This document shows positions 1,046 through 61,684 of a DNA stretch of 64,000 nt, one piece after another (within the stretch, counting starts at the first letter, position 1; each line of letters opens with the position of its first letter). The DNA comes from Tetradesmus obliquus (lineage: Eukaryota; Chlorophyta; Chlorophyceae; Sphaeropleales; Scenedesmaceae). The notes under the pieces are model-generated. The model saw only the letters and a list, made by a program, of their open reading frames with translations. It did not search any database and had not been told where the DNA came from. The translations under genes were made by a program, and so were the position numbers. The stretch spans positions 682,001 through 746,000 of the forward strand of contig CP126199.1 in assembly GCA_030272155.1 (NCBI GenBank). Reading direction: 5' to 3'.

Positions 1046-1760
1046 AAGGCCTCACACCACACCTGGGCCCTGCGCAGCGCTCCCACCACCACCAGGCTTC
1101 AAGCGAGCCGCTGCTGCTGCTGCTGCTGCTGCCTCAAACTCTGCCACCTCTGCCTCGTCCCCTGCAGCCACAACGAGCGCCAGCGGCACAGTGCAGTGCT
1201 GCTGCACGTACTGCTTGATGCCGGGGCCGCTGAGAATGCTGGACAGAACTGCTGCTGCAGCACAAACAACAACATTGGTTTGCCAAGGCCTCACACCGCA
1301 GCAGGGCCCTGCACACCACCAGCAGCATCACTGGGCTTCGCTGCCGCTGCTGCTGCTGCTGCTGCTGCCGCCTCGAACTCCGCCACCTCGGCCGCATCTC
1401 CGGCAGCCGCCACAATGGTCAGCGGTACTGTGCAGTGCTGCTGCATGTACTGCTTGATACCGGGCCCGCTGAGCATGCGCGCCAGCCTGCGGATGTGTTG
1501 TTGTTTCAGGACTGCATTGCTGCTGCTGAGCACAATCACAAAAATCCCCCAAGGTCTCACACCGCACCTGGGCCCTGCGCACTACCAGCAGCACTGCTAG
1601 GCGTCGCTGCTGCTGCTGCTGCTGCTGCTGCCGCTGCTGCCTCAAACTCTGCCACCTCCGCTGCATCCCCCGCAGCCGCGACAATCACAGCGGCACAGTG
1701 CTGCTGCACGTCCTGCTTGATGCCAGGCCCGCTGAGCATGCTAGACAGAGCTGTTGCTGC
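1046..1760 (-). repeat. Three extra copies of the USP terminal exon
   Basis: Three tandem segments, roughly 235 to 268 bp apart, each repeat the 3' part of the last exon of the universal stress protein gene. The minus-strand peptide core GPGIKQYVQQHC followed by AAAGDxAEVAEFE and an Ala run is readable near 1225-1100, 1470-1340 and 1730-1600. A fourth, presumed functional, copy lies at 1975-1834. The copies differ in CTG-repeat length and at scattered bases, so they are not a simple assembly stutter. They lie downstream of the stop used in the preferred model and could be alternative terminal exons, 3' UTR, or dead copies. Confidence 0.8.
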
Positions 1761-1833
1761 ACAGCAGACAACGACACCATCCATGCCAAGGCCTCACACC
1801 GCAGCAGGGCCCTGCGCAGCACCCCCACCACTA

Positions 1834-3359
1834 CTAGGCTTCCCCTGCTGCCGCTGCTGCTGCCTCAAACTCTGCCACCTCTGCTGCATCCCCTGCAGCC
1901 GCCACAATTGTCAGCGGCACAGTGCAGTGCTGCTGCACGTACTGCTTGATGCCAGGCCCGCTGATCATGCGGGCCAGCACGCCCCTGCTGCTGTGGTGCT
2001 GCTGGCCGCGGCCTGCTGCCAGGTAGACGTGGCTGCATTTCAAGTCTTGCGCCTTGGCGCAGATGAGCCTGCCTATTGTCTTGGCACACTGGGAGGCCTG
2101 CAGGCAAGTGTTTGTAACACTAATCATGTTATGATGTGTACACGTGGCTGCAGTTCAAGTCCTGCGCCTTGGCGCAGATGAGCCTGCCTATTGTCTTGGC
2201 GCACTGCGAGGCCTGCAGGAAGCAGAAGATATGGCAGTGATAGCAATAAGCCAAGCCGCACATGCCAATACATGCGATGGGTGGGACCCCTTCTGCAGTT
2301 GGACCTGCCCTCCGTCTTGGCGTACTATGAGGCCTACAGGCAAGCAAATGTTAAAAAGAATCACGTCTTGGCGCACACAAGGAGGCATCTAGGAAACTGG
2401 CGTCTTCCTGCAGATGACGCTAGATATGCTGTGCTTTATACAGAATCAGATACACCCGCCCGCACCTGCACGATGTGCACCGTGGGCCGCATCCCCAGAA
2501 CTTCCAGGGCGCCCAGGAAGCAGCACCAGCAGAAGCAGTGTGCTTCAAGGTGAACCGCAATACAATCAGTGGGAGAAACAGTTGTTAACGCGCACCTGCA
2601 CAATGTGCACCGTGGGCCGCAGCCCCAGGGCTTCCAGGGCGCCCAGGAAGCAGCACCAGCAGAAGCAGTGTGCTTCAAGGTGACGCACAAATAGGCGAAG
2701 TTCACCTCACCTGCACGATGTGCACTGTGGGCCGCATCCCCAGGGCTTCCAGGCTGTCCAGGAAGCGGCGCTGCAGCATGGCCAGCACCACGCGCTGCGC
2801 CTCCTGAGGGTGCGCCTGCAGCAGCAGCATGATGCAACATTGTTGCAGCGGGCGGATGTGACCACAGTATGGTGCAGTTTTGTTGTCGATGGCGTAATGA
2901 GCCGATTGTGCAGGGGTGGCACGCAGTGGTGCGAGCCGCATTTGTGCAGGACCACTGCTACTGCTGTTGCTGCTGCCGTTTGCGCAGCATGGCTGGCTGC
3001 ACCACTGCAAACAGATGCAGCAGTAGGACCCCGCGGATGCAGTAGAAACAGCAATGCTCACAATCATGTACGTGCCGTCACACACTGCAGTTTGACTCAT
3101 CAGTAGCACGGTTCAGGTAAAAAAACGGTGTATATGGGGTACCACAAGCACACTCTGCACACGGTACCTGCAAAAAGTAGTCACCTCCCGGCAGCTGGTT
3201 GCTGCCTGTGCCTGCTGTGTCACGCATGGTGACATGCAGCAGGTGCAGCTTGTCCCCTGGCAGCAGCAGGTCACTGTCCAGCACCCACTGCAGCATCAGC
3301 TGGCAGGCATCAGTGTCATCAACTGCAAGCAGGATGGCCCTGCCCTCGCTGCTGCTCAT
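1834..3359 (-). CDS. Universal stress protein (UspA-type), three exons
   Basis: The model is complement(1834..2097, 2711..2815, 3168..3359), every junction in phase 0, giving 186 residues. The N-terminus reads RAILLAVDDTDACQLMLQWVL and then LHLLHVT, the first beta-alpha-beta unit of the USP fold. Exon 2 gives a helix and VHIVQ. Exon 3 gives AKAQDLKCSHVYLAAGRG, then GPGIKQYVQQHCTVPLTIV, the USP C-terminal signature. In USP families this part forms the ATP-binding loop (G-2X-G-9X-G-S/T). Here the usual Gly-Ser/Thr position reads Gly-Pro, so nucleotide binding is uncertain. The length fits single-domain plant and algal USPs, which are small cytosolic or organellar stress proteins. The ATG at 3359 is the first in frame. 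The protein ends in an Ala tract encoded by a CTG repeat. Both introns carry extra copies of the adjacent exon edges. Confidence 0.85.
2027..2690 (-). repeat. Intronic copies of USP exon 3 start and exon 2 end
   Basis: The segment 2146-2222 is a close copy of 2027-2103, the start of USP exon 3 (SQCAKTIGRLICAKAQDL). Shorter pieces of the same edge recur near 2300-2340 and 2365-2395. The end of exon 2 (LGMRPTVHIVQ) recurs near 2530-2466 and 2650-2595, each followed by a GT. All lie in the single intron 2098-2710, so copies of both flanking exon edges sit inside it. Confidence 0.75.
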
Positions 3360-11644: not shown

Positions 11645-14600
11645 TCACTGCTGCTGCTGCCCTGGTAGATCACCGAGCAGCCCCTTGCGCAGCCAGACCT
11701 TTCTCCCCCCAATGTCAGCACACACCATACCCCTGTTTGGCACTGGGCTCCACCAGCACTTGGGCACGCAGTAGCTGCTCAGCAGCACGTCGTCACTCTT
11801 GTTGACCAGCGCCTGGGGCCGCGCTGGGTCCATGCTGTGCAGGTATTGCTGCAGCACGATAGACAACACTTCGTGGCAAGGCGGCATGGGCCAACGGGCG
11901 CCAGTCTGGCGTCTGTTATTGGCTGGGGGATATAGGATTACTGCTGGGTGTTTGCCATGCAGCGCATTTGACTTGCAACAAATCAGCATTACGTTTGCAA
12001 CATAACACAACACGCTGGGCGCTCACCTCCAGGTTGTGCACCCTGATGAACGCCCCAATGCACTGCCCAGCACGGCAGCAGGACACCGCAAAGGCTGTAT
12101 GCCACGCAGTGCATGTGACTTACAGCTCACCAACATGACCAGGTGGACAGAGAAGTACTTATAAACGCCAGCGACCCGCCTCCAGGTTGTGGCGCGCCCC
12201 AATGCTGCCCCAGTGAGCTGCCCAGCACAGGAAGGACACCGCATGCTGCGTGCCATACAGACTATGTGATGACACGTTCACAATGGACTTGTACACCCCA
12301 GCGGCCCACCTCCAGGTTGTGGCGGGCCCCAATGGCTGCCCCTGTGAACTGGCCTGCCCTGTAGTAGGGCACCGCCAGGCTGTTGAAAAGCAGCTCCTGG
12401 CCGCCGTGCACGTACCTGCACATGAGGCAGCAGCAGGAAACACAAATATCAAGCAGCAGCAAGACATGCGGCAGCAGCAGCATCAGGCTGTTGAACAGCA
12501 GCTGCTGGCCGCCGTGCACGTACCTGCGCGCACGAGGCAGCAGCGCAGGCACAAATAAAGTGACATAAATAACACACATGGCAACAGGCTGTTGAACAGC
12601 AGCTCCTGCCCATCACCATGCACGATCCTGAGTGCATGAGACAGCAGCGCAGGCAGGAACCACAGTGCAGTATTATAGCACAGAGTGCTGCAATACACAG
12701 CACGGCAATGCACAGCACGGCAGCGCAGCACGCGCACCTGAAGGAGGGCACGCGCACTGCTGAGAGCACGCACGGCAGAATGCTGTATAGGATTTGCCGT
12801 ACACGTGCACAGCACGACAGTACGGCAGTTGCACCCACCTGAAGAAGGGCACGCGCACTGCTGACGACATTAAAGCAGAACACAGCAGTGTCGCACGCTG
12901 TACACAGTACGACACTCCTGCAGTGCACAAACCTGAAGAAGGGCACGCGCACTGCTGACGACATTAAAGCAGAACACAGCAGTGTCGCACGCTGTACACA
13001 GTACGACACTCCTGCAGTGCACAAACCTGAAGAAGGGCACGCGCACTGCTGACGACATTAAAGCAGAACACAGCAGTGTCGCACGCTGTACACAGTACGA
13101 CACTCCTGCAGTGCACCCACCTGAAGAAGGGCACGCGCACTGCTGACGACATTAAAGCAGAACACAGCAGTGTCGCACGCTGTACACAGTACGACACTCC
13201 TGCAGTGCACAAACCTGAAGAAGGGCACGCGCACTGCTGACGACATTAAAGCAGAACACAGCAGTGTCGCACGCTGTACACAGTACGACACTCCTGCAGT
13301 GCACCCACCTGAAGAAGGGCACGCGCACTGTTGACGACATTAAAGCAGAACACAGCAGTGTCGCACGCTGTACACAGTACGACACTCCTGCAGTGCACCC
13401 ACCTGAAGAAGGGCACGCGCACTGCTGACGACATTAAAGCAGAACACAGCAGTGTCGCACGCTGTACACAGTACGACACTCCTGCAGTGCACAAACCTGA
13501 AGAAGGGCACGCGCACTGCTGACGACATTAAAGCAGAACACAGCAGTGTCGCACGCTGTACACAGTACGACACTCCTGCAGTGCACAAACCTGAAGAAGG
13601 GCACGCGCACTGTTGACGACATTAAAGCAGAACACAGCAGTGTCGCACGCTGTACACAGTACGACACTCCTGCAGTGCACAAACCTGAAGAAGGGCACGC
13701 GCACTGCTGACGACATTAAAGCAGAACACAGCAGTGTCGCACGCTGTACACAGTACGACACTCCTGCAGTGCACCAACCTGAAGAAGGGCACGCGCACTG
13801 CTGACGACATTAAAGCAGAACACAGCAGTGTCGCACGCTGTACACAGTACGACACTCGTGCAGTGCACAAACCTGAAGAAGGGCACGCGCACTGCTGACG
13901 ACATTAAAGCAGAACACAGCAGTGTCGCACGCTGTACACAGTACGACACTCCTGCAGTGCACAAACCTGAAGAAGGGCACGCGCACTGTTGACGACATTA
14001 AAGCAGAACACAGCAGTGTCGCACGCTGTACACAGTACGACACTCCTGCAGTGCACAAACCTGAAGAAGGGCACGCGCACTGCTGACGACATTAAAGCAG
14101 AACACAGCAGTGTCGCACGCTGTACACAGTACGACACTCCTGCAGTGCACAAACCTGAAGAAGGGCACGCGCACTGCTGACGACATTAAAGCAGAACACA
14201 GCAGTGTCGCACGCTGTACACAGTACGACACTCCTGCAGTGCACAAACCTGAAGAAGGGCACGCGCACTGTTGACGACATTAAAGCAGAACACAGCAGTG
14301 TCGCACGCTGTACACAGTACGACACTCCTGCAGTGCACAAACCTGAAGAAGGGCACGCGCACTGCTGACGACATTAAAGCAGAACACAGCAGTGTCGCAC
14401 GCTGTACACAGTACGACACTCCTGCAGTGCACAAACCTGAAGAAGGGCACGCGCACTGCTGACGACATTAAAGCAGAACACAGCAGTGTCGCACGCTGTA
14501 CACAGTACGACACTCCTGCAGTGCACAAACCTGAAGAAGGGCACGCGCACTGCTGACGACATTAAAGCAGAACACAGCAGTGTCGCACGCTGTACACAGT

Positions 14601-28146: not shown

Positions 28147-28189
<43 letters not shown>

Positions 28190-28615
28190 TGGTGGCAGTC
28201 ACATGGGTGTGCAGCACGCGAAGACGCCCAATCAAAGCAGCCCACATAACCACGCAAGTCCCTGTCACAGCGCTCAAGGATGCATCAGCATCAGCATACA
28301 TCCGCAGCAGCACCAGCAACATCGTCAGCATTAGCATTAGCATGTATCAGCATGCATCAGCACCACCGGTGGTGCATCAGCAGTCACCTACACACCTGCA
28401 AACACTTCTTCATCCGGCCGCGGGGCCCAGTCGAAGTGCCCGGCGTTCCACTGTGACCAAGAACACAGCACACAGCATTGACAAGCAACTGTCGCTGACT
28501 GACCAACCAACCAACCAACCTGCAAACACTTCTTCATCTGGCCGCGGGGCCCAGTCGAAGTGCCCCGCGTCCCACTCGTAGTCGTTGCGCAGGTCCATCA
28601 CCACCACGCGCTTGC

Positions 28616-45900: not shown

Positions 45901-48900
45901 ACTACAGCAAGTCAAAAGCTCAGGGCTGCAGCGCTACAGCTGCTGTGCAGCTTTGACCAGCCGGCATTCCTTGGCACAGGCGGCAGCGGCAGCAGTAGCA
46001 GCAGCAGCATTGATCCTGCAGCGCAGCAGCATCCAGCGCAGCAGGGGCAGGCAGAGCGCACCGCGTTTCAGGGTCTGTCATGTGACGTGTTACTAACATT
46101 ACGTGACATCCACCTGCGGCCGTGCAGTGTGGAGGCAGGCAGGCGCTGGGCTGTAGCACTGGAGCGGGTCAGCAACCACTTGGAGTATGGGCGCGTGCCT
46201 GCGCTGCTGCTGCCGGCGCTGGTTGCTGGGCTGATCGGCACACTGCACATCAGGTGGGCATCCTCTCTTGTGCAATCTATGCTTCATTAAGCAAACATAT
46301 GTTCAGGATATTGTGTGCATGCCAGTGCCAGTGCCGGTAGAAGTGATGTACCATGCGTGCAGCATGGGTGCGCTGCACATCCGCTGCATTCCAGGCAGTC
46401 TTGACTTATGCGACACTGAACTGTGCAGCCAGGAGTGTGCGTGACAACAGCTCTCCTGCGGTCACAACCCCTCTTCATGCTGTGTATCTGCTGCTGCACT
46501 ATGCACTGTGTACTGTGTGCTGCTGCAGGTTCTCCCCGCTGTGGCAGCCAGCCAGCCAGGCGCTAGGCTGCTCCTTTCTCTGATGGTGTGTGGTGTTGCT
46601 GCTGCTGCTGCTACTGCTGCTGCTATGTACCAGTGTAACATCATCATCATGTTACCATTTAAGCCATAGCAACGTCGCCATCGGCCCCGCGCCCCACAGG
46701 AGCGGCTGAACCCTGTGTAACATGTATGATGTGTGCTGCTGCAGGTTTTCTCCGCTGTGGCAGCCAGCCAGCCAGGCGCTAGGCCAGGCCCTGAGCAGCA
46801 GCGCTGACTCGGCCTGGCCGCTGCTGCTGAGCCACATCAGCCACGTGCAGCAGCTGTTCCTGGCAGGCCAGGGCAGCAGCACAGCAGAGGCTGAGCTGGA
46901 CGATGAGTCAGCAGCAGCAGCAGCAGCGCCAGGTCAGCAGCAGCAGCAAGGTCAAAGTTTGACCGGAAGTTTGACCGAAGGTTTGACCGGGTTTGACCTG
47001 CAGCAGCAGTGGCAGAGCTACTGCCAGAAGGGGTATGGCGTTGCAGCAGCAGCGTCAGGCAGCTGCACAGATGCTGCTAACCGGCTGACTCACATCTTGA
47101 AGGGTTTAGCTGCTGCCACTGCGCCTGAGGTTTTAAACAAGGTTTCAGCGGATTGGGTGCCACTGCTACTGACGTTTGCCGCTGCTGTCACGCATGGCGG
47201 AGCAGCAGATGAGGCAGGCGAGGATGAAGGGCAGGAACAGCCTGCCACAAATGCAGCAGCAGCAGAAGAAGCAGAAGATGAAACAGCAGCAGCAGCAGCA
47301 GCAAGTGAGGATGCTGCAGTGGGTGCCAAGCGGAAGCAGCCTGAGCCAGCAGCTGCAGGAGAACAGCCAGCAGCAGACCAGCAGCAGCAGCAGCAGCAGC
47401 CGTCGGCCAAGCGCCAGCGCGGCAGCGGTTTAGCGGGTGCTCTGTGCCGCGAGGGTTTAGGCGGCCTGGGGTTCAGCATCAGGGCTTGGCGGGGTGTGAT
47501 GATGGAGTGGCTGGCGCTGCTGGGGGCGCTGAAGAACCCTAAGAAGCAGCAGCGGTGAGTCACCCGGAACGCATTGGAAAGCTTTTGTTTGGTATTGGGC
47601 TTGCTGCATGTTGTGAGGGGGCATGTCGCAGCAACAGAGCCAGTGCACGCGCAGCTGGATACAGCTTATGTGACAGATGTTCAGTTGTAAGAGCAGCGGT
47701 CAGTCACCCAGCAGGCGTTGGCAAAGCTTTTTGTTTGGAGTTGGGCTCGCTGCATGTTCTGAGGATGCAGCAGTGTGGCAGCAACACAGAGCCAGTGACA
47801 CGCATAGCTGCACATTGTGCTTGTGTGTCAGCTGTTCAGCTGTTCAACGACACGTGCATGTGAACATCAACCGTGCGCGCTGGCGGCCTGGCGGCACTGT
47901 GCTGTGTGCCGGCAGTGCCCCGCCGTGCAGCCTTGCGCTGTAAGCCGCTGCGCACCACATCACTCCTGCTCCTGCTTACCCGGCACTGACAGCACCCCGA
48001 GTGACCTGGGTCAATGAAGGGCGGCGCATGCATATCACTCAATGCACATCCATGCAGTAAACGAGATCCAACTGCTTTGTATAGCCTGCTGGTCAGATCT
48101 GTGTGCAAGCTATCGCTGTACGTAAGATGCTACCTGTTGCAACCCCTACATTCACAACCTTGCTGCGCTGCTGCTGCTGCTGCTACTGCTGCTGATGATG
48201 ATGATGCTGATGCTGATGCTGATGCTGCTGCTGCTGCTGCAGGGCTGCCGAGCTGCAGGAAGCCGTGGCGCGGCAGCTGCTGTCATCCGACCCCTCCCTG
48301 CAGACTGCTGCGCTGCGCTGCCTGTCATCTTTCAAGCTGTCATTCCTGCCAGCACACCTTTTGAATGTGCTGCTGCAGCTGGCTGACGTGGCAAAGCTGC
48401 GCGGCGGGCTGGTCAACATCCCGATCATGTTTGACCGGGGCGTTGACCAGGGCGTTGACCATGGCGGGGATGAGGCGCAGCGGCAGCAGCAGCGGCACTT
48501 GCTGAAGAAGAAGAAGGGAGGCAGTGGGGATGTGGGCAGGGTGGACCCCCACACACGGCCAGGTGAGCAGCAGTGAACATATCTTAGCTATTGTGCACAC
48601 CAGTTTGCTGTGAAGCTCTTGGTTGGTTTGTGGTGGTGGGGATGTGGGTAGGGTGGAACCTTACACACGACCAGGTGAGCACCAGCAGTGAACATAGCAC
48701 GCTTTTGGTTTGTTGAAAAAAGGAACTTGGTGAGAATGGGTTGTATGGAGGCGTGGTTGTGGGTATGCCCATAGTCAGCAACGTGATTCCTGATGTGTTG
48801 CAGCGAAAGAGTGTGAGTGCACGAAACACAGCGCCTGCGTCACAGCTGTGTTTGTCTTTGCTTAGCAAATGCTTGTTCCCCAACCGTGCGTGCTGGCGGC

Positions 48901-49731
48901 CTGGCGGCACTGTGCTGTGTGCCGGCAGTGCCCCGCCGTGCAGCCTTGCGCTGTAAGCCGCTGCGCACCACATCACTCCTGCTCCTGCTTACCCGGCACT
49001 GACAGCACCCCGAGTGACCAGGGTCAATGAAGGGCGGTGCATGCTCAACATTGATGACTGTCCTTTCAAGAAAACTGCAAGACCCTTTGCTGTTTATCTG
49101 CTGTGTTCGTGCAAACTTGGCTGCTGCCTGAGCTGGTGTATACAGCCAACTTCTGTCGCGGCTGCCGCTGCAACCTGAAACCTGCACATGACACGAAACC
49201 CCACAACTCTCTCCTCGACCGCTCAGCACCGTCATCACCCTCACCTGAGCAGCAGTATCAAGTCTTGTACATTGTCTTTTTTATCTGCAGGCTTTGTGTT
49301 GCTGCTGACCATGGTGCTGTACCCCAAGCTGGCCAAGCACACTGCTGAGGAAGCCGCCTCCTCTCATCAACGTCAAACAGCCCATTATTCCTCGCTTTAC
49401 TGCTTTGTATGCTGCGTTTGCAGGCTTTGTGCAGCTGCTGCCTTTAGTGCTCTACTCCAAGCTCACGCAACCTGCCACTTTTCGGGCCCCTCTTGTAAAC
49501 CATTTTGCTGCTTTTGCTTGTTTCTGCAGGCTTTGTGCCGCTGCTCACCATGGTGCTGTACCCTAAGCTGGCCAAGCGCAGCGGCAGGCTGGGCGGCAGG
49601 GGCGCCCCCGGCAGTGCACGCGCAGCGGTGCTCAACGCACTCGCTGCGCTGCAGCCGGCTGAGCTCACCCCTCTGCTAGAGCTGCTGCTGATGCCTATCA
49701 GCAGCACCTTCAAACAGCCAGAAGACCAGCT

Positions 49732-49764
<33 letters not shown>

Positions 49765-51405
49765 TGTAGAGGCAGCCGCCGGCTTGCAGGATATCAATTC
49801 CTACAGGCTGATCCCGGCGCCCTGGTGGTCAAACCACTTGGTCAACTCGCCCGTTGACTGGTGGTTGACCGCCGTTGACCGGTTAACGCTGGCGGCGCAG
49901 CCGCTGCGCAGGCGGCAGGGCTTTCTGAATGCCTTTGAGGATCTGCTGAGTCACCTGGGGTACCAGCTGCAGCCGCTGATGCCTGCTCTGCTGGCAATTA
50001 CGCTGCAGCTGCTGCAGACGGCATCTGCTGGCATGCAGGCGCAACAGCAGGACGCAGGCGCAGCAGCAGACGAAGCAGCTCCAGCTGCGGATGCGCAATC
50101 GAGGGAAGAAGGCAGGGCAGTGCGCTCGCAGTGCTTGCGGCTCCTGGCGCAGGTTTTTAGCCGCTTCCCAGCCACCCTAAACCTGAACCCTATCTGGCCA
50201 GGGTTTTTCGCAGCCGCTGAACCCTTGATGACTCGGCTGGTGCCAGAGTCAGCTGGGTCCGCACCTCCAGCACTGCTGGCGGCGGTTGAAGCCCTTGCTG
50301 CAAACCCTGGCCTGGCTAGGGTTTTGGGAGACCTGCCGAGTCAGCAGCTTGAACCCCAGGAAGCTGGCAGCAGCGGTTTAGCAATGGACGTCGACAGCCA
50401 GCAGCAGCAGCAGCAGCAGCAGGATGGGTCGGCTGATCCAGGGTTTAGCAGCCAGTGGCCGCCAGGTCAGCAGCCGAGCTGGGCTGCCCAGGGTTTAGGC
50501 GGCAAGCTGCTCTGCAGCTGCATTAGGGTTTTGGGCTCTAAGGGCTGCAGTGAATCTAGCAGGGCAGCAGCGCTGTCTGTTGTGGAGGCCTGTCTGGCGC
50601 TGCAGCCGCAGCAGCTGCTGGCGGCTGTGCTGCTGCGGTGGACGCCGCTGCTGCTAGTGGAGCTGAAGTCCAGTGTGGAGGCTGTGCTGGTGGCTGCTGC
50701 TGCTGCTGCTGGGCCTAACAAGGGCGGCAAAGGCAGGGTGAGTTGGTGTCGGTTGCTGCAGCTGTAGCGCTTGTGCGTGTCCGTTGCTGCAGCTGTAGCG
50801 CTTGTGCGTGTTTGAAACCAGCTGCTTTGGCAGACAGCATGGCCAACGTGTGTTAGTATGTTGCTACAGCCGGGTGTGTGCTGGTTGAGCTGAAGGCTAG
50901 TGTTGAGGCTGTGCTGGTGGCTGCTGCTGCTGCTGCTGGGCCTAACAAGGGCGGCAAAGGCAGGGTGAGTCAGGAATGGCTGCAGCAGCTGTAGCGCTCA
51001 TGAGTGTTTCAAATCAGCTGTTACTGCGTACAGTATGGCAAGTTGTTGTATCTGCAATGGTACCTGATGTATTGCAATCCTTACAAAAGCCAGCTACATG
51101 CAATTCATTCTCTGCTGCAGGGCCCCAAGGGCCGTGGAGGGCCCCACCAAAAGCGCCCCTCAGTGCACCGCCAGCTGGCGCTGCTGCAGGCGCTAGGCCA
51201 GCACTGCACCGACAATGCCACAGCCGCCAGCTTGGCTGCTGCCCTTGTGGCGCTGCTGCAACCACCTAATAGTGGCAGGAGCGGCGGCAGCAGCGGCGGC
51301 AGGGCGGGCGGGGGGTTAGGCAAGCGTGCTGCATTGGATGAAAAGGGCATGGGGAAGGCTCTGGGGGCAGTTGCTGCGCTGTGGAGGGCGATGCAGCAAC
51401 CGCAC

Positions 51406-51460
<55 letters not shown>

Positions 51461-52277
51461 CTGGCAAGAGTGGGGACGTAGCAGCAGCAGAGGTAGAGCA
51501 GCAGCAGGTGCTGCTGCAGCACTGGGAGACGCTGTCGCTGCTGTTTGGGCAGCTGGGCAGCAGAGACGCCCGCAGCGCAGCAGCAGATGCCCTGCTCGCC
51601 CTCAGCGGCCTGCTGCAGCACACAAGCAGCAGCAGCAGCAGCGTCACTGCTGCCAGTGACTCAGCTGATGCAGCACACGCAGCTGAGCAGCACTCAGCTT
51701 ACTCAGCTGTTGCAGCTCAGCTTGTGGACCTCAACTCGTGGTCGGTTGAGTCATTGGATGATCCCGACTACAGCCGCCGCATGGGCTGCTACAGCCGGCT
51801 GCAGCCGCAGATCTGGGCAAGCTACAGCCGCCTGCAGGCGCTGCCGCTGCTACTGCAGGGCTTCTTTGACCTGCGCAATGGCGATGACCTGGCCATCCGG
51901 CAAGCTGCTGCTTCTGCGCTGAGCAAAGCAGTAGACGCCATGGCGCAGCTCGAGCAGCAGCAGCAGGGGATTGGCCTCGAATCACCAGCAGCAGCAGCAG
52001 CAGCAGGAGGTGTGCAGCTGGATCAGGACGATCCGCTGCGGCTGCTGCCCCGTGTGCTGTACCCGCAAGCCAAGTCCGGCCTGCGCAGCAACAACTTGGC
52101 AGTGAGGCAGGAGCATGCAGCGCTGCTGCGGGCGCTGGTGCTGGCCCTGCCGGGGCGCTTTCCAGATCTGCTGCCGCTGACAAATGCAGATCCTGAGCAG
52201 GACTTCTTTTTGAATATAACACATCTGCAGATCCACAGGAGGGGCAGGGCGCTGCAGCTGCTGGGGCGGCTGGCAGC

Positions 52278-52309
<32 letters not shown>

Positions 52310-52442
52310 GAGAGGATGCTGCTGCAGAGGCGGGCGCAGCGAAGAGGCAGCGGCTTGCTGATGGCCAGGTGGCAGCTACACAGCAGCAGCAGAATGGCGA
52401 AGAGGATACAGCGGCAGCAGCAGGTGGTGCCAAGCGCCCACG

Positions 52443-52475
<33 letters not shown>

Positions 52476-52826
52476 CAAGGCTGTGAGTGTGCGTGTGCTG
52501 ATGGACATTGCTGCTCCGCTGCTGCAGCAATTCATCATGGAGGGTGCCGGAGTAGGCAGCGGCAGCGCTGCTGCTGCTGCCGCTGCTGCCGTGCAGCGCG
52601 GCGGCCACATCAAGACACAATCTGACAGTGACCGTGAAGGAGCAGTGGCAGATGTTGCAATTGATGCTTTGCGGGAGCTGTGCCGGCTGCTGGGGTGGCA
52701 GCAGTACAGTGGCTTGTTGCAGCGCTGGCTGAAGCTGATGACTCAGAGTCCTCGGAAGCAGGTTATTAGGGCTGCCTGTGCTGTGCTGGATGCATTTCAC
52801 TTTGAACTGGACGTGGAGGAGGCCCC

Positions 52827-52864
<38 letters not shown>

Positions 52865-52893
52865 GGAGCGGGGCGATGGAGGTGGATGGCGCA

Positions 52894-52931
<38 letters not shown>

Positions 52932-53803
52932 TGATGACGATGCTGCTGCCGAGCAAGACACAGAGGAAGAAGAAGACGAAGAGCAGCAGCAGGAGCATGA
53001 GGAGGATGAGGAGGCAGCAGCAGCAGCAGCAACAGCGGAGCGTGCTGCTGCTGCTGCTGCCGATGTTGCTGCTGCTGCCAAGCAGCTGCTGATGAAGCGA
53101 GTGCTGCCTGTGCTGCAGAGTCAGCTGGTGATTGATGACCAGGAGGTAGCAAGGGCACCTGTGGCGCTGGCTCTGGTCAAACTGATCAAGGTGAGGGTTT
53201 GGGTTATCAGGTTTCAATCGTTTGACTTCAGGGTTTGCCAAGGGTATGGTACTTGATGACCAGGAGGTGGCACGGGCACCTGTGGCGCTGGCCTTGGTCA
53301 AACTTATCAAGGTGAGGGTTTGGGGTTCTAAGGTTCAAACTGTTTGACTCGGAGGGTTTGCCTGGAGTATGGTGATTGGTGATCAGGAGGTGGCTAGGGC
53401 ACCTGTGGCGCTGGCCCTGGTCAAACTCATCAAGGTGAGGGTTTGGGGTTTGAAGGTGGTAATGTTTGACTGTTGTCGCCAAGGTTGCTATGTTTTATGC
53501 ATATCTGCTGCTGGTTTTTTCTGTGTGAGCTGCACTGCACCGTGTTCAATTGCCAATCCAGGTGATGGCCACTTACATCGCTGCTGCCGCTGCCACTGCT
53601 GCTGCTGCTCGCAGTTGCTGCCGGCTGATGTGGAGCGTGTGGCGCTGCCGCGCTGCCTCACCTCCATCGCCTGCCAATTGCCACATTGCTGACCACTTAC
53701 GTTGCTGCTGCTGCTGCTTCTACCTTGCAGCTGCTGCCTGCTGACGTGGAGCGTGTGGCGCTGCCGCGCTGCCTCACCTCCATTGGCTGCTAACCACTCA
53801 CAC

Positions 53804-53838
<35 letters not shown>

Positions 53839-56800
53839 TTCGCCTTGCAGCTGCTGCCGGCTGATGTGGAGCGTGTGGCGCTGCCTCGCTGCCTCACCTC
53901 CATTGGGGGCCTGCTGCGCAGCCGGCTGCACAGCAGCAGGGACGCTGCACGTGCCGTGCTGACCGACCTGTGCCTGGAGCTGGGCCCTGAGTACCTGCCC
54001 ACCGTCATCAAGTGAGCTGTTATTACTTTGTTAGTTTTGATCATTACTGGCAGGTGCATGCTGTGTCGTTCTGACTGACCTGTGCCTGGCGCTGGGCCCG
54101 GAGTACTTGCCTACAGTGATCAAGTGAGTAATGGCTCAATCTACTATATACGTTGTGCTTTGTGGTGTGCTGACTGACCTGTGCCTGGAGCTGGGCCCGG
54201 AGTACCTGCCCACAGTCATCAAGTGAGTAATGGCTCCTCTGTGCTCTGCTGTGCTGTGATTGTTAGTGCTGTGCTTTGTTGAGTGCTGCCAGACCTGTGC
54301 CTGGAGCTGGGACCTGGGTACTTGCCCACAGTGATCAAGTGAGGCTCCAGCTGTTTGAACCCCTGCACCCTGTTGGATACTGTGTCTGAGTATGACTTGA
54401 GTTGTTTTTGTAGGGGTACAGGCAATGTGCTTTGGTAAATGAAACATCTTTTGGCAGCTTTAGGAACGTCGCCGTCCACAGCAGAAGACCGGTTGGCGTG
54501 GTCGCTGACGTGTGTTGCTGTTGCTGCTGCTGCTGCTGCTGCTGTTGCTGCTGATTACAGCGTACTGCGACCCGTGCTGCCTGACAAGGGCTACACCGCA
54601 CACGTGCTGGGCTTCACCGCTGACGTGTCATCCTGCTGTGTCTGCTGCTGCTGCTGCCGCTTCACCTCTCCCCATTTAGTGTGCTGCGAGCTGTGCTGCC
54701 TGACAAGGGTTACACCGCGCACGTGCTGGGCTTCACGGCTGCGTCGCTGCTGGCGGCGCACGTGGCGGCTGGCGTCAGCCCTGGCGCGCTCGACGAGGCG
54801 CTGCCACTGCTGCTGCCCACGCTGGAGGGTGACCTCTTCTGCTCGGTGAGACTCCAATGACATATTAACATATTATCAAAATTACCGATGCACGTGGTAC
54901 GTTCCATACATGGGGTGATTGATGAGGCGCTGCCGCTGCTGCTGCCTTCGCTGGAGGGGGACCTGTTCGGCTCGGTGAGCTGCTTGTTGCATGGGTTGCT
55001 GGTTTTGATAGGTGCTTCTTCAAGGTAACTGGGTTCCGCTGCTGCTGCGCATGCTGAAGGGCGAGTTGTTTGCCTTGATGAGGGGCTGCTCAAGCAAACT
55101 GTTGGGGATTCGCATGTGCATGAGTGCTGGCGGCGCACGTGGCGGCTGGCGTTTGCCCTGGCGCGCTTGACGAGGCGCTGCCGCTGCTGCTGCCCACGCT
55201 GGAGGGGGACTTGTTCGGCTTGGTGAGGCGCTGCTTGTAAGGATACCATTAGTAGCGACGGTTGCCCCTGTGCGTATACATGTGTGTGGCTGCCGCTGCT
55301 GCTGCCCACGCTGAAGGGGGCCAGATTTGCTCAATGGGGCGCTGATAGGTTTTGTGATGCTTGCTTGTGCATGTGCATATGCAGGTCTCCGAAGTCAAGG
55401 AGGCCACTGCCTTTGCCGGCAAGTACAGAAGAGGCCAAGCGCGGCAGGGCGTATGAGGCCTACCAGCACCTGGCAGCAGCAGTCACTCTTGACAATCATA
55501 TCACACTACTGCTGTGGCTGCCTCTCACACGCTGCAGGTCTTTTAGGCAAAAGAGGCCACCGCCCTTCGATGCACCACCATGCAATTCAAGCTTGCTCTG
55601 ACATCAGGCCGCTGTGTTTTTCATGCTGCTGCCTGCAGGTCAGTGAGGCTAAGGAGGCGACCGCTTTTGCGGGCAAGTACAAGGAGGCCATCACCGGCTC
55701 ACCTTCAATCTCATAACCTCACAGCTTGGGTGACGTTCTGATCGCATCTTGCGTAATGTTCTGCACTGCTGCTGTGCACTACCTGCCTGCAGGTCTCTGA
55801 AGCCAAGGAGGCCGCTGCTTTTGCAGGCAAGTACAAGAAGGCCAATATTGTGGCTTGCAGTAACGTTGAACGCTTACTTCAAAATTGGACTGCTGCTGTT
55901 ATGTACAACACTGCAGGTCAGTGAGGCCAAGGAGGCCACTGCTTTTGCGGGCAAGTACAAGGAGGCCAAGCGCTGCAGGGCCTACGAGGCCTACCAGCAC
56001 CTGGCAGCAGCAGTCACCCCCCAACTTTCATCTCACGCTACTGCTGTGGCTGCCTCTCACACACTGCAGGTTGCTGCGGCTAAGGAGGCCACCGGCTTGC
56101 TTTCATTTCACCATGCAGCTCAAGCTTGCTTTGACATCAGGCTGCTGTGCTATTACGCTGCTGCTTGCAGGTCTCTGAGGCCAAAGAAGCCACTGCTTTT
56201 GCAGGCAAGTACAAAGAAGCCAAGCGCTGCAGGGCCTACGAAGCCTACCAGCACCTGGCAGCAGCAGTCACCTTTGACACACAGATCACGCCGCTGCTGC
56301 AGCTGGTTCAGGGCAAGCTGCCATCCGCAACAAGCCCCAGCATACGCGCAAAGCTCGAGCAGCTGCTAGCTGCTGCTGCGCGCGGCGTTGGGGTGAACCC
56401 GAGTGTTACTGCGGAGGGTTTAGCAGTGTGGCTCGGGCGGGAGTTGGATGGATGTTTGAAGGTGGAGGAGGCTGCGAGGGCGAAGGCGAAGGCGGCTGTG
56501 GGTGCGGCGAGTGCGACGGGCGCTGCTGCGGGCAAGCGCACACCAAAGCAGTTTCGCGATGCAGCTACTAACGGTGCAGCAGCAGATGCGGCAGATGCAG
56601 ATGAGGCAGAAGAAGAGGAGGAGACAGCAGCAGCGCAGGCAGCAGCAGCAGGCGACGGCTCGCAGCACCTGTATCTGCTGGTGGCTTTTTGTCTGGCTGT
56701 GCTGAATGCCGCGCTGAAGAAGGGTGTGCTGGCAGGCAGGAGCGCTGAGGTGCTGGCGCTGCTGGACCCGCTGCTGCCGCTGTTGGTGCGCTGCCTGTAC

Positions 56801-59800
56801 AGCAGGCACCTGGGGAGCGTGCAGGTGGGTTGCTGGCGGGATTGCTGCAGTTTGATTTGCTGTGGTGTTGTGTTGTGTTGTGTTTTGCTGTCGTTGGTGT
56901 GTGGCTGCTTGTACAGCAGGCACCTGGGCAGCGTGCAGGTGGGTGGCGGCTGCCAGAACAAAGCATTACAGTCCGGAATGTACCTCACCCCACAGCTATC
57001 GCTGTCTGCAGCTGCTGCTGTGATGGCGCATGTGCAGTTGTGCTTGCTGCTTGCTGCGTATGTAGTTTGGCAGCTGGTGCGCCACTGTTGGCTGCAAACA
57101 GACGATCAGTGGCCTGCAGGCCTGCTGCGATTAGACAGCAGCTTTACTTGCTTGCTTCAATGTTAAAGCCGGTTGTCATGGCTGTGCCGTCTTTATAGGT
57201 TTACAAAGGTCGCATGGATGTTGCCTTTGTATACCTCCTTGCCCTGTGCAGGCCGCGCTAAAGGCGCTGACGCTGCTGGTGGGCGTGCAGCAGCTGCCGG
57301 GGCTGCCTGCCGCTGCTGCTGCTGCCGGCAAGGCGCTGAGCAGCCTGCTGCGCAAGGTGCCTGACGCGGGCCACCCCCTGGCGCAGGACTGCTTCAGGCT
57401 GCTGGGAGGTGCGGCTGAGGATTTGTCCCTGACTTTTTTCTGCTGTGGTAAATTTTTTAGAGGGTGTTTGTGCTTGGTGGCAATGGGTGCCATTGTAGCA
57501 GCCATGGCGAGCACATGTTTGATGCTGACTGCCGTTGCCACTGTGGTTGGGTGGAGGTCCTGTGGTGTGTGGTTGGTGACGGAGTGCTGCGCAAGGTGCC
57601 TGATGTGGGTCACCCCCTGGCCCAGGACTGCTTCAGGCTGCTGGGAGGTGCGGCAGCGAGCTACGCGTGGTGTGTCATCAATCAACACACGTGTAGGTTA
57701 GGGAAGGGGGTCTGTTTGACGATGGGGACCCCATGCGCCTCCACACCTCCTGCCATCCGCACTGATCTCAGGGGCTCGGCAAGCGCTGGGCGGCGCAAGG
57801 GCAGGCCAACCACAGCAGACGCAGCTGCAGGCGCAGCAACAACTACAGCAGCCGCAGTGCTGGACGGTTCCTCCCAAACATGCTGCCGTCACTCACTGTC
57901 ACTCACTGCGACGCCTCACCATCCCTGCTGCCACGCCTGCATTCTTTGTTCTTCCTTTCCTGAACACACCTTCCCTGCTGCTGCTGCTGCTGCTGGTGCT
58001 GGTGCTGCTGCTGCTGCTGCTGCTGCTGCCTGCTGCAGCCATGCTGCGCGACTGCCCCAGCTACAACCCTCCCACACCGCAGATCCGCTTCCTACTCAAA
58101 TGGATCGCAGCAGACCTGCAATCCGGCGGAACAGCAGCCAGCGCAGCAGCAGCACTAGCAGGCACCAGCGGCGGCGGCAGCAGCAGCAGCAGCGGCGAGC
58201 GCGTGAGCGGCTACGGGCTGCTGCGTGCTGTGCTGGCGCGGCGGCTGCTGGTGCCGGAGGTGTATGACGTGATGGACATCGTGCAGAAGCAGATGATCAC
58301 GTGAGTAATCTTTATTTTGTGTGATTGTTTGCGGCTGAAGTGTTTGTGTTTGGTGTTTGTTGAAAGGTGCTGGCTTGTAGTGGTGGCAGCTGTCATACTT
58401 GATCCCTGCCTAAATGCTGCAGCAGCAGCAGTAGCTGTTACAGGTGTAGTGAGCGGCTACGGGCTGCTGCGTGCTGTGCTGGCGCGGCAGCTGCTGGCGC
58501 CTGAGGTGTACGATGTGTTGGACATCGTGCAGAAGCAGACGATCACGTGAGTGCTTTGTTGTCAGGCAATGTGGCTGCAGGTGTTGGTTACCGTGTGCTG
58601 AATGATGTTGAGCTGTGTTTCAAGTTTCGCCCATGGCAGCTGTCGGACCCGCTGACTGCATGAGAGGCTGCTGCTGCAGCAGTTGGGGCAACAGTACTGT
58701 TGGTGGGGATGCTGCAGCCGTGTTGCTGTGGCCATTGCTGGTGCCGGTGAGATGTGTGATGGCATGGATATTGTGCAGAAGCAGATGATCACGTGAGTGC
58801 TGCCAAGGTTGCAGAGCAGCTGCCGGGGCTGCATATCAGCTGCAGTGCAGCCGCTTTTGCTGGAAGGTTGGTTATATGTTGTGTTGGATGCGGCTGTGGT
58901 ATGTGGCAGGCTGCCTGCTTCTTCCCCTGCAGCAGCCACTCGCCGCATCCACACTTAACTGACGCTGCTGCTGCTGCTGCTGCTGCCGCCGCTAATCTTC
59001 TTACTGCAGGAGCCACTCGGCGCCCGGCCGCGCCACTGCCGCTGCCTCGCTGCTGCAGTTCCTGCTGGATTACCCCCTCAGCCCCAGCAGGCTGCAGGGC
59101 CATGTGGCCTTCCTGTTATCAAATGCCGGCTATGAGCACGAGAGTGGCCGGCTGGCGGCGCTGGAGATGCTGCAGCAGGTGCGGCGGCTGAGTAGGACAC
59201 CTGCGCTGGCTGTGCTGTTATGGTGTGTACAATTGCTGTGCACCTGAGCACTTGGTTGGTGCTGGAGATGCTGCAGCATGTGCAGCCGCTGCGCACGTGC
59301 TCAAGCTTTGCTGGTGTGTTAGTGGTGTATGCTGGGCCCCAGCAGGCTGCAGAGCCACGTGGCCTTCCTGCTGTCCAATGCTGGCTATGAGCACGAGAGC
59401 GGCCGGCTGGCGGCGCTGGACATGCTGCAGCAGGTGCGGCGGCTGCGCAATTTCCATCTATACGTGCATTGGTGATGTACTGTGCAGGTGTACATGTTCT
59501 GCTACTGTGTGATGTTGTTTAAGGGTTGTTGTTATTGTTGTTTACATGTACATGTTGTGTTTGAGTGGGCGGTTGGACTACCCGCTCAGCCTCAGCAAGC
59601 TGCAGGGCCACGTGGCTTTCCTGTCGTCCAATGCCGGCTATGAGCACGAGAGTGGGCGGCTGGCGGCGCTGGAGATGCTGCAGCAGGTGCGGCAGCTGTG
59701 ACAAAGCACTTCGTTAGTGTGTTACTCAGACAGAGTTTCTATGTCTAAGTAGCTGCGCTGTGGTTGGTACTTGTGTTTTCTTCCTTTGGAGGGCTGGCCT

Positions 59801-60855
59801 CGTGCAATGGATTCACAACAGGTAACGCCTGCACTCGACCCTCACAGAAAATGGCTGCTGACAACAGTTCCAACCTGCTGCTTGCTGCTTGCTGCTGCTG
59901 CTGCTGCTGCTGCTTTGCTGCTGCAGGTACTCTTGAAGTTCCCGCCGGAAGTCACTGCCAACTTGGCAGCCACAGCATACCTGCCGCTGGTGACACGTCT
60001 GGCAAACGAGACCAGCCCCAAAGCCCGCACAGCAGTAGCAGCCACGGTCAAGCTGCTGCACAAGCAGCTGCAGGCGCAGCAGAATGACCAGCTAGCTGGC
60101 TTTGCGCAGCAGTGGCTCTTCAAGGGCGCAGACATGCCACACCAGCAGCAGCTGCTGCTGCTGCGCGCTGCAGCAGCACATGCGCTAGGGCTGCTGGCTG
60201 AAGCAGAGGGTCCGAGGTTTGGCCAGCGGCGGCTGAGTCCGGAGTTTGTGGGGCGGCTGGTGCCGCTGCTGGATGGGGCGGCAGCAGCAGCAGATGCAGC
60301 ACTGGCAGCGAGCTTTGCTGCCGATGATGCTGACGTCGAGCAGCAGCAGCAGGGTGAGGAAGCTGGTCTTGCAGGTCTGTCTGGAGGTGTGCCCCGCTGG
60401 CAGGAGGTGTACCATGTGCTGCTGATGCTAGAAAAGGCTGCCAGTGGGCCGCAAGGAATAGCTGCAGTGAGCTGGCAGCAGGGCCAGCCGGTGCAGCAGC
60501 TGTGGCGGTTGCTAGTGCAGCGGCTGCTGCTGCATCCGCACCTGTGGGTGCGCAAGGTGGCTGCGCGGCTGCTGGGGCTGGGTTTGGCTGCGCCTGGTGT
60601 CACAGACGGCCTGATCCAGATTGCTGCTGGGGGCAGCAGTGCTGATGAGGCAGCAGCAGCAGCAGCAGGGGGTGCTGGCAGTAGTGAAGATGGCAGCAGT
60701 AGCTGCAGTGTAAGTGCAGGGAGTCTTGCGCTGTTTGTGTACAGGCAGTTAGAGGCAGAGGTGGTTGATGAGGGCCTGTGCACGCAAGCAGTGAAGTGCT
60801 TGGTGGCGCTTGCAAAGCACCTGGCAGCACAGCAGCAGCAGCAGCAGGGGCCTGC

Positions 60856-60894
<39 letters not shown>

Positions 60895-61684
60895 TGGCAG
60901 TGAAGATGAAGAGGACGCAGTTGATGAGGGAGCAGCCAGCAGTGAAAGCGACGAGGAAGCAGCAGCAGCAGCAGCAGCAGCGAACGGCCATCGCCATGAT
61001 GATGAAGATGCCGAGGATGATGATGTGTCAGACCACGAGCAGCAGCAGCAGCAGCAGCAGCGGCAGCAGCGCAAGGCAGAGGTGTCACTGCAAGGCCTCA
61101 TCGTGCGCATGGTAAGGCTTGCAGAAGACACCCGCCACGCGCGGCAGCTGCAGCGACTCGCCGCGCTGCGCTGGATCGCCGCAGCAGCAGCAGCCGTCGG
61201 CACGGGGCCGCTGCTGCCGCACCTGCCGCTGCTGCTGCGGCCGCTGTACCGCATTGCAGAGGCAACCGGGCCCGCGCAGGCCCGCCAGCAGACCGATGCT
61301 GGTGCTGCTGCTGCTGGGGGCACTCCTGAGGAGGTCCGTGCGCTGTCTGAGCAGGTCCTGGCGCATCTGCGCAACCTGTTCGGCGCCGAGCAGATGCTTG
61401 CGGCGTACACGGCGGCACGCGAGGCAGTGCGGGCCGCACGCGCAGCGCGCAAGACGGCTGCGGCGCGGCGTGTGCTGTTAGATCCTGAGGCAGCTTCACG
61501 GCTGAAGCTTAAAAAGGGCCGGAAGAAGAGCGAAGCAAGGCAGCGCAAGGCGGAGCAGGCGAGGCGGCAGAGGGCTGCGCGGGGCTCTGGCGGTTTTGGG
61601 TATAAGGCGAAGCGGGGCGGGGGTGCTGGTGGGAAGGGGAGGGGTGGCGGGGCAGCAGGCGGCAGGGGCGGCGGTAGGCGATAG
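41185..61684 (+). CDS. UTP20: UTP20-like small-subunit processome scaffold (DRIM)
   Basis: Eighteen exons: 41185-41280, 41645-41733, 42154-42253, 42558-42691, 42993-43141, 43676-44110, 44393-46253, 46745-47554, 48243-48562, 49530-50737, 51121-53190, 53851-54011, 54680-54845, 56171-56824, 57252-57408, 58039-58300, 59010-59178, 59927-61684. They total 10,599 nt with every junction phase matched (3,532 residues). UTP20 hallmarks appear in order: the start HRFKNIAQRID, ESLTEWRELN, LDDPDYSRRM, then DFFLNITHLQIHRR (about residue 2095), GYTAHVLGFTA, SLLQFLLDYPL, GYEHESGRLAALEML, and a Lys/Arg/Gly-rich tail. UTP20 is a HEAT-repeat nucleolar protein of the U3 processome, needed for 18S rRNA maturation. 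Human UTP20 has about 2,785 residues; most extra length here is Gln, Ala and acidic runs in exons 7, 8, 11 and 18. At least ten introns carry copies of adjacent exon edges, and two carry the 161-bp element. Confidence 0.92.
43062..43383 (+). repeat. Threefold 121-bp duplication of a UTP20 exon end
   Basis: The last 80 bp of exon 5 plus its donor and 41 bp of intron are repeated at exact 121-bp spacing (TGGCCAAGCAG at 43091, 43212 and 43333). The copies are nearly identical, including GTGCGTAATACGAAG after the donor, so this duplication is recent. Only use of one copy keeps the frame. Confidence 0.95.
47871..48031 (+). mobile_element. 161-bp interspersed element, copy 2 of 3
   Basis: Same 161-bp unit as 48884-49044 and the reverse of 28811-28971. 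It lies in the UTP20 intron 47555-48242. Differences from the other copies include CGCGC in place of CGTGC at the left end and GACCTGGGTC in place of GACCAGGGTC. Confidence 0.85.
48884..49044 (+). mobile_element. 161-bp interspersed element, copy 3 of 3
   Basis: It lies in the UTP20 intron 48563-49529. It is preceded by CCCCAA and followed by TCAACA, sequences unrelated to those around copies 1 and 2 apart from a shared CAA before copies 2 and 3. Confidence 0.85.
49291..49575 (+). repeat. Three copies of a UTP20 exon start
   Basis: TGCAG followed by GCTTTGTG...CTGCTG occurs at 49291, 49423 and 49530. Each reads GFVxLL and continues toward VLYPKLAK or a variant. The third copy continues into the long exon 49530-50737 and keeps phase. 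The second copy is the most diverged. Confidence 0.85.
50669..50966 (+). repeat. Two copies of the end of UTP20 exon 10
   Basis: The segment encoding ELKSSVEAVLVAAAAAAGPN and ending GGCAGG plus GTGAGT (50669-50742) recurs at 50888-50971. The second copy lies in the intron 50738-51120. Confidence 0.85.
53127..53440 (+). repeat. Three copies of the end of UTP20 exon 11
   Basis: The segment encoding DQEVARAPVALALVKLIK with donor GTGAGGGTTTGG is present at 53127-53205, 53248-53325 and 53372-53445. Spacing is about 121-124 bp. The first copy is the one joined to the exon body. Confidence 0.9.
53611..53905 (+). repeat. Three copies of the start of UTP20 exon 12
   Basis: LLPADVERVALPRCLTSI with its acceptor is encoded at 53611, 53731 and 53851. 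The third continues through the exon. Spacing is 120 bp and divergence is small. Confidence 0.9.
53960..54348 (+). repeat. Four copies of the end of UTP20 exon 12
   Basis: DLCLELGPEYLPTVIK with an AAGTGAG donor is encoded at 53966-54016, 54078-54130, 54176-54228 and 54292-54346. The first is contiguous with the exon body. Confidence 0.9.
54559..55325 (+). repeat. Copies of both ends of UTP20 exon 13
   Basis: The start (VLRxVLPDKGYTAHVLGFTA) occurs at 54559 and 54680. The end (ALPLLLPTLEGDLF plus GT) recurs after the real exon near 54920-54976, 55125-55224 and, in shorter pieces, 55040-55065 and 55288-55320. Confidence 0.85.
55386..56260 (+). repeat. About seven copies of the start of UTP20 exon 14
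   Basis: The acceptor plus the coding start VSEAKEATAFAGKYKEAKR occurs at 55386, 55639, 55793, 55917 and 56171, with weaker copies near 55545 and 56069. Several copies extend into AYEAYQHLAAAVT. Only the copy at 56171 continues into the full exon (56171-56824). Confidence 0.9.
56900..56945 (+). repeat. Copy of the end of UTP20 exon 14
   Basis: CTGTACAGCAGGCACC followed by AGCGTGCAG and the donor GTGGGT repeats the last codons of the exon ending at 56824. Confidence 0.85.
57585..57660 (+). repeat. Copy of the end of UTP20 exon 15
   Basis: LRKVPDVGHPLAQDCFRLLGG followed by GTGCGGC repeats 57348-57415, with few changes. It lies in the intron 57409-58038. Confidence 0.85.
58448..58800 (+). repeat. 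Two extra copies of the end of UTP20 exon 16
   Basis: After the exon end at 58300, the segment GYGLLRAVLAR...IVQKQxIT plus GTGAGT recurs at 58448-58553, and a shorter, more diverged copy ends at 58799. All three keep the donor ACGTGAGT. Confidence 0.9.
59328..59700 (+). repeat. Two extra copies of the end of UTP20 exon 17
   Basis: The segment encoding LQGHVAFLLSNAGYEHESGR and the following LAALEMLQQ plus GTGCGG recurs at 59331-59440 and 59579-59695. Copies differ at a few codons (for example LEMLQQ versus LDMLQQ). Confidence 0.9.

Follow-up and report, generated by a model that had tools for sequence, protein, structure and literature searches.

The 64,000-nucleotide stretch of the Tetradesmus obliquus genome analyzed here (contig CP126199.1, positions 682,001 to 746,000; hereafter the window, numbered from its first letter) contains a UTP20-like gene whose introns carry copies of the edges of the neighboring exons, along with lipase-like, rhodanese-like and USP-like regions. 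A preliminary description had placed such copies in five genes; we find them at exon edges of the UTP20-like gene, whereas the other three regions show only similar local repeats. The GC content of the window is 57%, and 57% GC with a mean intron length of 462 bp is given for T. obliquus in the accessible part of PMC5966456. The gene and its modeled exons are as follows.

43676-61684, plus strand: UTP20-like gene (Pfam UTP20_N and UTP20_C, matches to human and yeast UTP20, one open frame)
43676-44110, 44393-46253, 46745-47554, 48243-48562 and 49530-50737, plus strand: exons 1-5
51121-53190, 53851-54011, 54680-54845, 56171-56824 and 57252-57408, plus strand: exons 6-10
57772-58300, 59566-59686 and 59792-61684, plus strand: exons 11-13

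The 13 exons join in phase at 12/12 junctions and read as a single frame of 3,460 residues, without the start, with a terminal stop only; the one open frame claimed beforehand for a choice of one copy per boundary stands, at this length rather than the 3,532 residues given for it. At every intron the model takes the outermost copies, that is, the donor copy that comes first and the acceptor copy that comes last; the true 5' start lies outside the model, and the shortest intron is 105 bp (59687-59791). Because a frame-aware predictor helped to build the exon chain, the phase agreement is not fully independent, and protein homology provides the firmer evidence. Both domains, UTP20_N and UTP20_C, were detected with Pfam, pieces of the gene align with human and yeast UTP20, and collinearity with a solved UTP20 was found for a 226-residue stretch as well as for other pieces. 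The 226-residue stretch spans three copy-laden introns and aligns collinearly with residues 1810-2022 of human UTP20 (E 7.9e-28), without a gap at any of the joins (3/3), and the copies within those introns therefore lie outside the conserved protein. For the remaining introns, the case for spliced-out copies rests mainly on frame.

Comparison of 160-bp exon edges with their own introns returned 25 matches, 13 donor-type (copies of an exon end) and 12 acceptor-type (copies of an exon start). Donor-type copies adjoin the upstream exon and acceptor-type copies the downstream exon, and the two-sided symmetry described earlier thus holds in this gene; read by eye, the repeats of the window likewise show exon ends with GTGAG recurring downstream and exon starts with TGCAG recurring upstream. 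Copies are visible at 14/24 exon boundaries, which confirms them here but makes their presence throughout every multi-intron gene too strong a claim, as 10/24 boundaries have no visible copy. A separate listing of copies in this gene comprised 36 high-scoring segment pairs (HSPs), nine of which were dropped as microsatellite-like or short (eight from the GCT-rich end of 51121-53190, plus 59258-59278). The curated set of 24 copies leaves out three of the 27 HSPs kept, namely 59066, 59336 and the donor-less fragment 55289; put differently, it equals the 25 matches minus 59066 and 59336, which copy most of a 121-bp exon, plus 43525, which sits upstream of the first modeled exon. Copy 59066 was re-used as the 25th pair for the boundary test described below. 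The individual copies are listed here.

43525-43613 (89 bp, offset 151), plus strand: acceptor-type copy of exon start 43676; 94% identity, 5 synonymous and 0 nonsynonymous codon differences
46529-46568 (offset 216), plus strand: acceptor-type copy of exon start 46745; 95%, 2 synonymous, 0 nonsynonymous
48636-48674 (offset 112), plus strand: donor-type copy of exon end 48562
49291-49341 and 49424-49463, plus strand: two acceptor-type copies of exon start 49530
50879-50964 (offset 227), plus strand: donor-type copy of exon end 50737; homology extends 43 bp into the intron
53247-53311 and 53370-53434, plus strand: two donor-type copies of exon end 53190; unit of about 122 bp, intron part partly alignable
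53615-53667 and 53731-53786, plus strand: two acceptor-type copies of exon start 53851
54063-54338, plus strand: three donor-type copies of exon end 54011, ending at 54123, 54222 and 54338
54561-54622 (offset 119), plus strand: acceptor-type copy of exon start 54680
54921-55222, plus strand: donor-type copies of exon end 54845, ending at 54974 and 55222
55289-55318, plus strand: further fragment of exon end 54845, stopping before the donor and without a donor site
55385-56018, plus strand: acceptor-type copies of exon start 56171, starting at 55385, 55639, 55793 and 55917, inside a block duplicated at 532 bp
near 55537 and 56068, plus strand: two short acceptor-type copies, seen by eye
56886-56938, plus strand: donor-type copy of exon end 56824, the sole one of the 24 whose use keeps the frame open
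57585-57647 (offset 239), plus strand: donor-type copy of exon end 57408
58416-58792, plus strand: two donor-type copies of exon end 58300, ending at 58546 and 58792
59066-59178 and 59336-59433, plus strand: two copies covering most of exon 59566-59686 (121 bp)

Up to five mutually distinct versions of a single exon edge occur. The block duplication (55380-56222, offset 532 bp) carries several exon-edge copies together, and the arrays therefore grow by larger steps too. At the live exon edge 56171-56272, A stands where the copies have G at no fewer than four third positions, and the four singletons counted on this edge are all at third positions; a clustered mutation or a replacement event is possibly the cause.

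Controls for chance similarity between exons and introns of the gene gave the following results. Edges compared with other introns gave 16 matches in 264 comparisons, against 25 in 24 for own introns; 11 of the 16 are these very copies detected again because the 160-bp edge of a short exon covers both exon ends, and the other five look GCT-repeat-like. No wrong-side copies were found in the introns when exons longer than 330 bp were compared, and shuffled introns gave no match to exon edges in five rounds. The copies are also local to the gene, as intron 55230-56170 matched only itself and its neighbors in a search of the genome (104.66 Mb, 17 contigs; very common words skipped). A mobile element was rejected for the two introns searched in this way, their matches being local apart from a repeat-like stretch at 54504-54558.

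The splice sites of the curated copies are intact, with GT and a G at +5 in 13/13 donors each and AG in 11/11 acceptors. Donor scores of the copies (4.2-7.5) resemble those of live donors (4.7-7.5), whereas a score of 4.5 is reached by 3.4% of the GTs in the introns, those of the copies counted in. The pyrimidine content ahead of copy acceptors (0.65) is close to that of live acceptors (0.69) and above that of AGs throughout the introns (0.52), while the sequence upstream of copy acceptors is mostly non-homologous to that upstream of live ones. When an inner copy takes the place of the live edge, however, the frame shifts or stops appear in 23/24 cases, and the in-frame interchange that characterizes mutually exclusive exons was seen once (1/24 open and in frame), a result that speaks against the free splice-site choice once considered for this locus. 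Among the copies read by eye, without a scan, most of the acceptor type lack a donor at the distal end and most of the donor type lack a good acceptor, and they are therefore not cassette exons. Most likely, as had been proposed, the extra copies are spliced out; this reading of the sequence follows from the broken frames of 23/24 alternatives and from the collinear, single-copy alignment with human UTP20.

Homology between copy and exon reaches about 40-110 bp into the exon and mostly ends at the splice consensus on the intron side. Across 41 donor and 22 acceptor pairs, exon-side identity is high and falls off slowly in the range of about 40 to 80 bp. On the intron side of donors, identity amounts to 0.95-0.96 over +1 to +5 but is near chance by about +10, and the 11 donor pairs whose exon edges match at 93% or more behave alike; the 10 acceptor pairs of the same class are near chance past about 15 bp. 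This set, which also served for the synonymous counts, was chosen in part by the presence of a motif no more than 24 bp from the repeat end; the boundary test was repeated without the motif limit on UTP20 copies found by exon sequence alone. Ungapped intron homology was at most 15 bp in 24/25 of these pairs, and gapped extension into the intron reached at least 19 bp in 4/14 donor and 5/11 acceptor pairs. Under a stricter alignment score (z >4), the intron flanks are alignable in 3/24 pairs of real edge and copy, which therefore arose as boundary-spanning tandem units. The exon part looks younger than the flank beside it, and exon divergence is almost equal with alignable flanks (0.113, 3 pairs) and without (0.122, 35 pairs), copy-copy pairs counted. 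One copy, 55639, combines a flank derived from the live exon (z 16.5, 14.8% divergent) with an exon part closer to copy 55917 (3 differences in 52 bp, versus 10 to the live exon); these unlike histories of flank and exon part point, in this one case, to exchange.

The differences between copies and exons are coding-like when pooled. Of 63 pairs, 42 passed selection (length of 30 bp or more, clear frame, absence of stops); keeping one per boundary left 28, 14 of them in the window; frames outside UTP20 were taken from a codon score over 220 bp of exon, and some may be wrong. Over 577 codons, these 28 boundaries show 121 synonymous and 72 nonsynonymous differences (63% synonymous, 121/193), distributed 45/30/118 by codon position. 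If the exon changed only synonymously and the copy freely, the mutation models tried, strong CpG bias among them, predict a synonymous share of 40-49%, which the observed share exceeds by about four standard errors by our own arithmetic; with CpG sites removed it is 64%. The share is 71% in the window (70/99) and 54% outside it (51/94), the latter not clearly above expectation. Copy-copy pairs, which leave out the live edge and are not independent, give 67 synonymous and 39 nonsynonymous codons. Singletons in eight families fall 26/11/38 by codon position on copies and 1/3/16 on live edges, and two stop codons occur in the 28 one-per-boundary copies. For the UTP20 HSPs, the nine dropped ones counted in, the tally is 124 synonymous to 71 nonsynonymous, and, in another listing, all 44 rows of any frame quality give 154 to 123 codons with five stops. 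The uniform, non-coding-like divergence of neutral intronic tandem repeats is not what the pooled data show, and a fair statement is that the copies are under partial constraint, strongest in UTP20.

Local repeats of such geometry are not peculiar to the window. Our sample of 324 kb comprised the window, with its 94-bp satellite removed, twenty 10-kb loci and 60 kb of contiguous sequence; it contains 365 direct and 2 inverted repeats, against 0 in Markov-1 simulated sequence, and one or more partial near repeats occur in 13/20 of the 10-kb loci. In this sample, local tandem duplication enlarges existing introns elsewhere in the genome too, in keeping with the earlier proposal. Nearest-pair offsets peak at 110-129 bp both in partial repeats (29/126) and in full-unit repeats (20/62), with a second cluster at 220-259 bp, and offsets in the window are likewise about 110-130 bp and about double. 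This shared mode suggests that partial repeats are formerly full units whose intron part has been lost. Among ungapped partial repeats, a splice motif stands at the repeat end with the right polarity in 42/130 and with the wrong polarity in 9/130, and frame periodicity, determined free of gene models, reaches z 6.9 in partial repeats (153 pairs; 5.5 with 118 pairs in the sample only) and z 1.1 in full tandem repeats, where 11 pairs give low power. Outside UTP20, the repeats would thus be identified as exon edges by splice motifs and codon periodicity rather than by gene models. Near-identical partial repeats are rare (at least 99% identity in 3/126, at least 97% in 7/126) and therefore give no strong sign of ongoing growth, so that the "active" intron growth previously suggested is doubtful. 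The whole sample has a CpG observed/expected ratio of 0.54 with TG and CA in excess (1.7), which is suggestive of CpG methylation.

We tentatively propose, at a probability of roughly 0.42, that the arrays arose when sequence spanning exon boundaries was duplicated in tandem, in units of about 115 bp, and that the copies were kept exon-like by subsequent exchange of sequence. Short segments across exon-intron junctions would have been duplicated in tandem, repeatedly and on both sides of introns. Such a duplicate would be harmless because the splicing machinery may pair the acceptor and donor that flank a complete exon (exon definition), leaving extra copies inside a longer intron. The exon-derived part and splice consensus of many copies would keep exchanging with the live edge, by gene conversion or unequal crossing-over, as the intron part between copies drifts past recognition, and introns would grow into arrays of surplus exon edges still able to splice. 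Such exchange would explain why near-identical edges sit beside unrelated flanks, why the splice sites are intact and why the families are local to a gene; it accounts for the synonymous excess only if many copies once passed through the live position. Within this proposal, the copies and their arrangement, their lack in the conserved protein as far as it aligns, the unit size, the sharp boundary and the coding-like differences of the pooled data are observed, whereas exon definition, exchange and repeated events over time are what we infer. Several points weigh against it. The single discordant case (55639) could equally reflect uneven rates. Exchange with a freely mutating copy predicts at most 49% synonymous differences where 63% was observed, and exchange alone would therefore need extra screening of copies via the live position; the 54% share outside the window is not clearly above expectation. 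The intact splice sites of the 24 curated copies fit direct function too, and fragment 55289 has no donor. A bolder version, which we regard as doubtful taken as a whole, is that introns hold arrays of spare splice-competent edges kept near the live exon by exchange or by stepwise splicing, with the intron evolving in a coding-like manner and with a unit (about 115 bp) whose size the splicing or replication machinery determines.

Direct selection on the copies as functional secondary splice sites, which might for instance serve to take out long introns stepwise, unit after unit (recursive splicing), or to make regulated alternative transcripts, is a serious rival, although it appears somewhat unlikely to us. 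The intact GT, AG and +5 G of the curated copies, their live-like donor scores, acceptor pyrimidine content near that of live sites despite mostly non-homologous sequence, and the synonymous excess would all follow from it, as would a unit near legal intron length, given the shortest modeled intron of 105 bp. Yet an open, in-frame product results in only 1/24 cases, and the scarcity of second splice sites on copies read by eye speaks against ordinary alternative splicing. Unit-by-unit resplicing is moreover not general, because exon ends 54845 and 58300 have no final AG, and fragment 55289-55318 has lost its donor or never had one.

Simple tandem duplication over the boundary and subsequent neutral decay, with selection only purging duplications within exons, would account for the location, tandem orientation and harmlessness of the copies. 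Copies 49424 and 58706 indeed decay at all codon positions, many of the singletons on copies are nonsynonymous, the two stops among the 28 copies fit, and the 54% outside the window is close to the neutral expectation. Nevertheless it is unlikely, and fits poorly because near-chance, unalignable flanks stand beside exon edges 93-100% identical and because of the pooled synonymous excess (121/193 against 40-49% expected, CpG bias included), which persists in the non-independent copy-copy pairs (67 versus 39), where a still lower share is expected. A sharp stop of homology at the splice consensus might instead reflect copying bounded by splice sites, for example RNA- or R-loop-templated synthesis of the exon edge and consensus without the intron flank, an idea in line with the 22/40 strong shared donors that lie 5-9 bp from the repeat end and with the 21/24 UTP20 real-copy flanks that are not alignable at z >4. 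We consider it quite improbable, as full-unit repeats with an equal offset mode exist, a few flanks are clearly homologous, and such copying by itself explains neither the synonymous excess nor the fixed offset. Serial joining of diverged haplotypes in the assembly would produce differences like those of diverged coding alleles and few identical copies, both of which are observed; it is highly unlikely given up to five mutually different versions per edge, a preferred offset, donor copies followed by acceptor copies rather than alternating within UTP20 introns, and similar repeats at sampled loci on other contigs. UTP20 has helical repeats of about 40 residues, but an origin of the period in these HEAT repeats was rejected: the repetition is at the DNA level and takes in splice sites, and the lipase- and rhodanese-like regions contain similar repeats.

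Compared with known systems, the arrays resemble tandem or mutually exclusive exon duplications in repeating exon sequence with splice sites, but here mostly edges are repeated, with one splice site each and 23/24 unable to replace the live edge in frame. Intronic minisatellites also consist of tandem units, with variation in array size expected; here, units straddle the exon edge, the exon part stays similar, the rest is mostly lost, and about 115 bp is preferred. Introner elements supply intron sequence throughout the genome in certain lineages, green algae among them, and, according to the accessible part of PMC9860276, are alike across many genes, whereas the copies in the two introns searched match their own exon only; near-identical introns in many unrelated genes were not found for these two, the other matches listed all lying on one short GCT-repeat-like stretch (54504-54558). 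The closest precedent is the gain of introns through tandem duplication, among others in the potato RdRp case, where the duplicate spans the intron 3' part and the exon 5' part and thus an intron-exon boundary (PMC4974935, accessible part). Both involve local tandem duplication that includes a splice junction, but in potato a new intron formed and part of the duplicate stays exonic, whereas here existing introns grow on both sides, by several copies, none of which appears in the protein where it is alignable. Direct tandem duplication containing a splice junction, as specified by Rogers for intron gain, was found, with the full unit alignable only in some cases.

What the analysis adds to the preliminary description is a repeat unit near 115 bp, the abrupt end of homology at the splice consensus and the coding-like change in copies. 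A literature search (including the accessible parts of PMC5966456, PMC4974935, PMC9860276 and PMC10487979; many subscription papers were outside its coverage) found no description of such arrays, nor of existing introns growing by many two-sided, widespread exon-edge copies with a preferred unit and exon-like upkeep. The arrays touch on how introns lengthen and on how splicing ignores many equally strong nearby sites: this one gene offers 24 natural decoys for which frame and protein homology indicate the live site, with many further ones elsewhere in the genome. Because the copies are unfit for protein and yet often coding-like, intron growth becomes open to direct study. If copies exchange with the live exon, introns would provide exons with a reserve of sequence; stepwise use of the copies would instead amount to recursive splicing at a new scale. 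Copies also mislead gene prediction, as the predictor used here called them as exons.

In the other genes of the window, Lipase_3 and Rhodanese exceed the Pfam cut-off, and Usp falls below it (16.7 versus 24 bits). The repeats there are putative exon edges, read from local repeats rather than exon chains.

21407-21611, minus strand: lipase-like region, pair 21407-21489/21529-21611 (offset 122, 94%), candidate exon edge by reading
27293-30775, minus strand: rhodanese-like region, repeat pairs with offsets of 115, 120, 124, 229, 237, 158 and 119
27293/27408, 28386/28510, 29094/29323 and 29516/29753, minus strand: rhodanese-like repeat pairs
1036-2769, minus strand: USP-like region, about four units of period 239 (about 1036-1977), pair 2023/2138 and triple 2460/2591/2705

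A 161-bp sequence, 98-99% identical, lies at 28811-28971 (minus strand), 47871-48031 and 48884-49044 (both plus strand), that is, in the rhodanese-like region and two UTP20 introns; these three were its only matches in the genome search, and it represents a recent dispersal that is local rather than genome-wide. The satellite array at 12808-17096 consists of a 94-bp unit present about 46 times (97% matches) and has genome matches at this place only. An internal CCCTAAA repeat of 3.6 copies, of the plant telomere type, lies at 22487-22511, and an 18-bp tandem repeat (11.8 copies, 96% matches) at 37487-37698.

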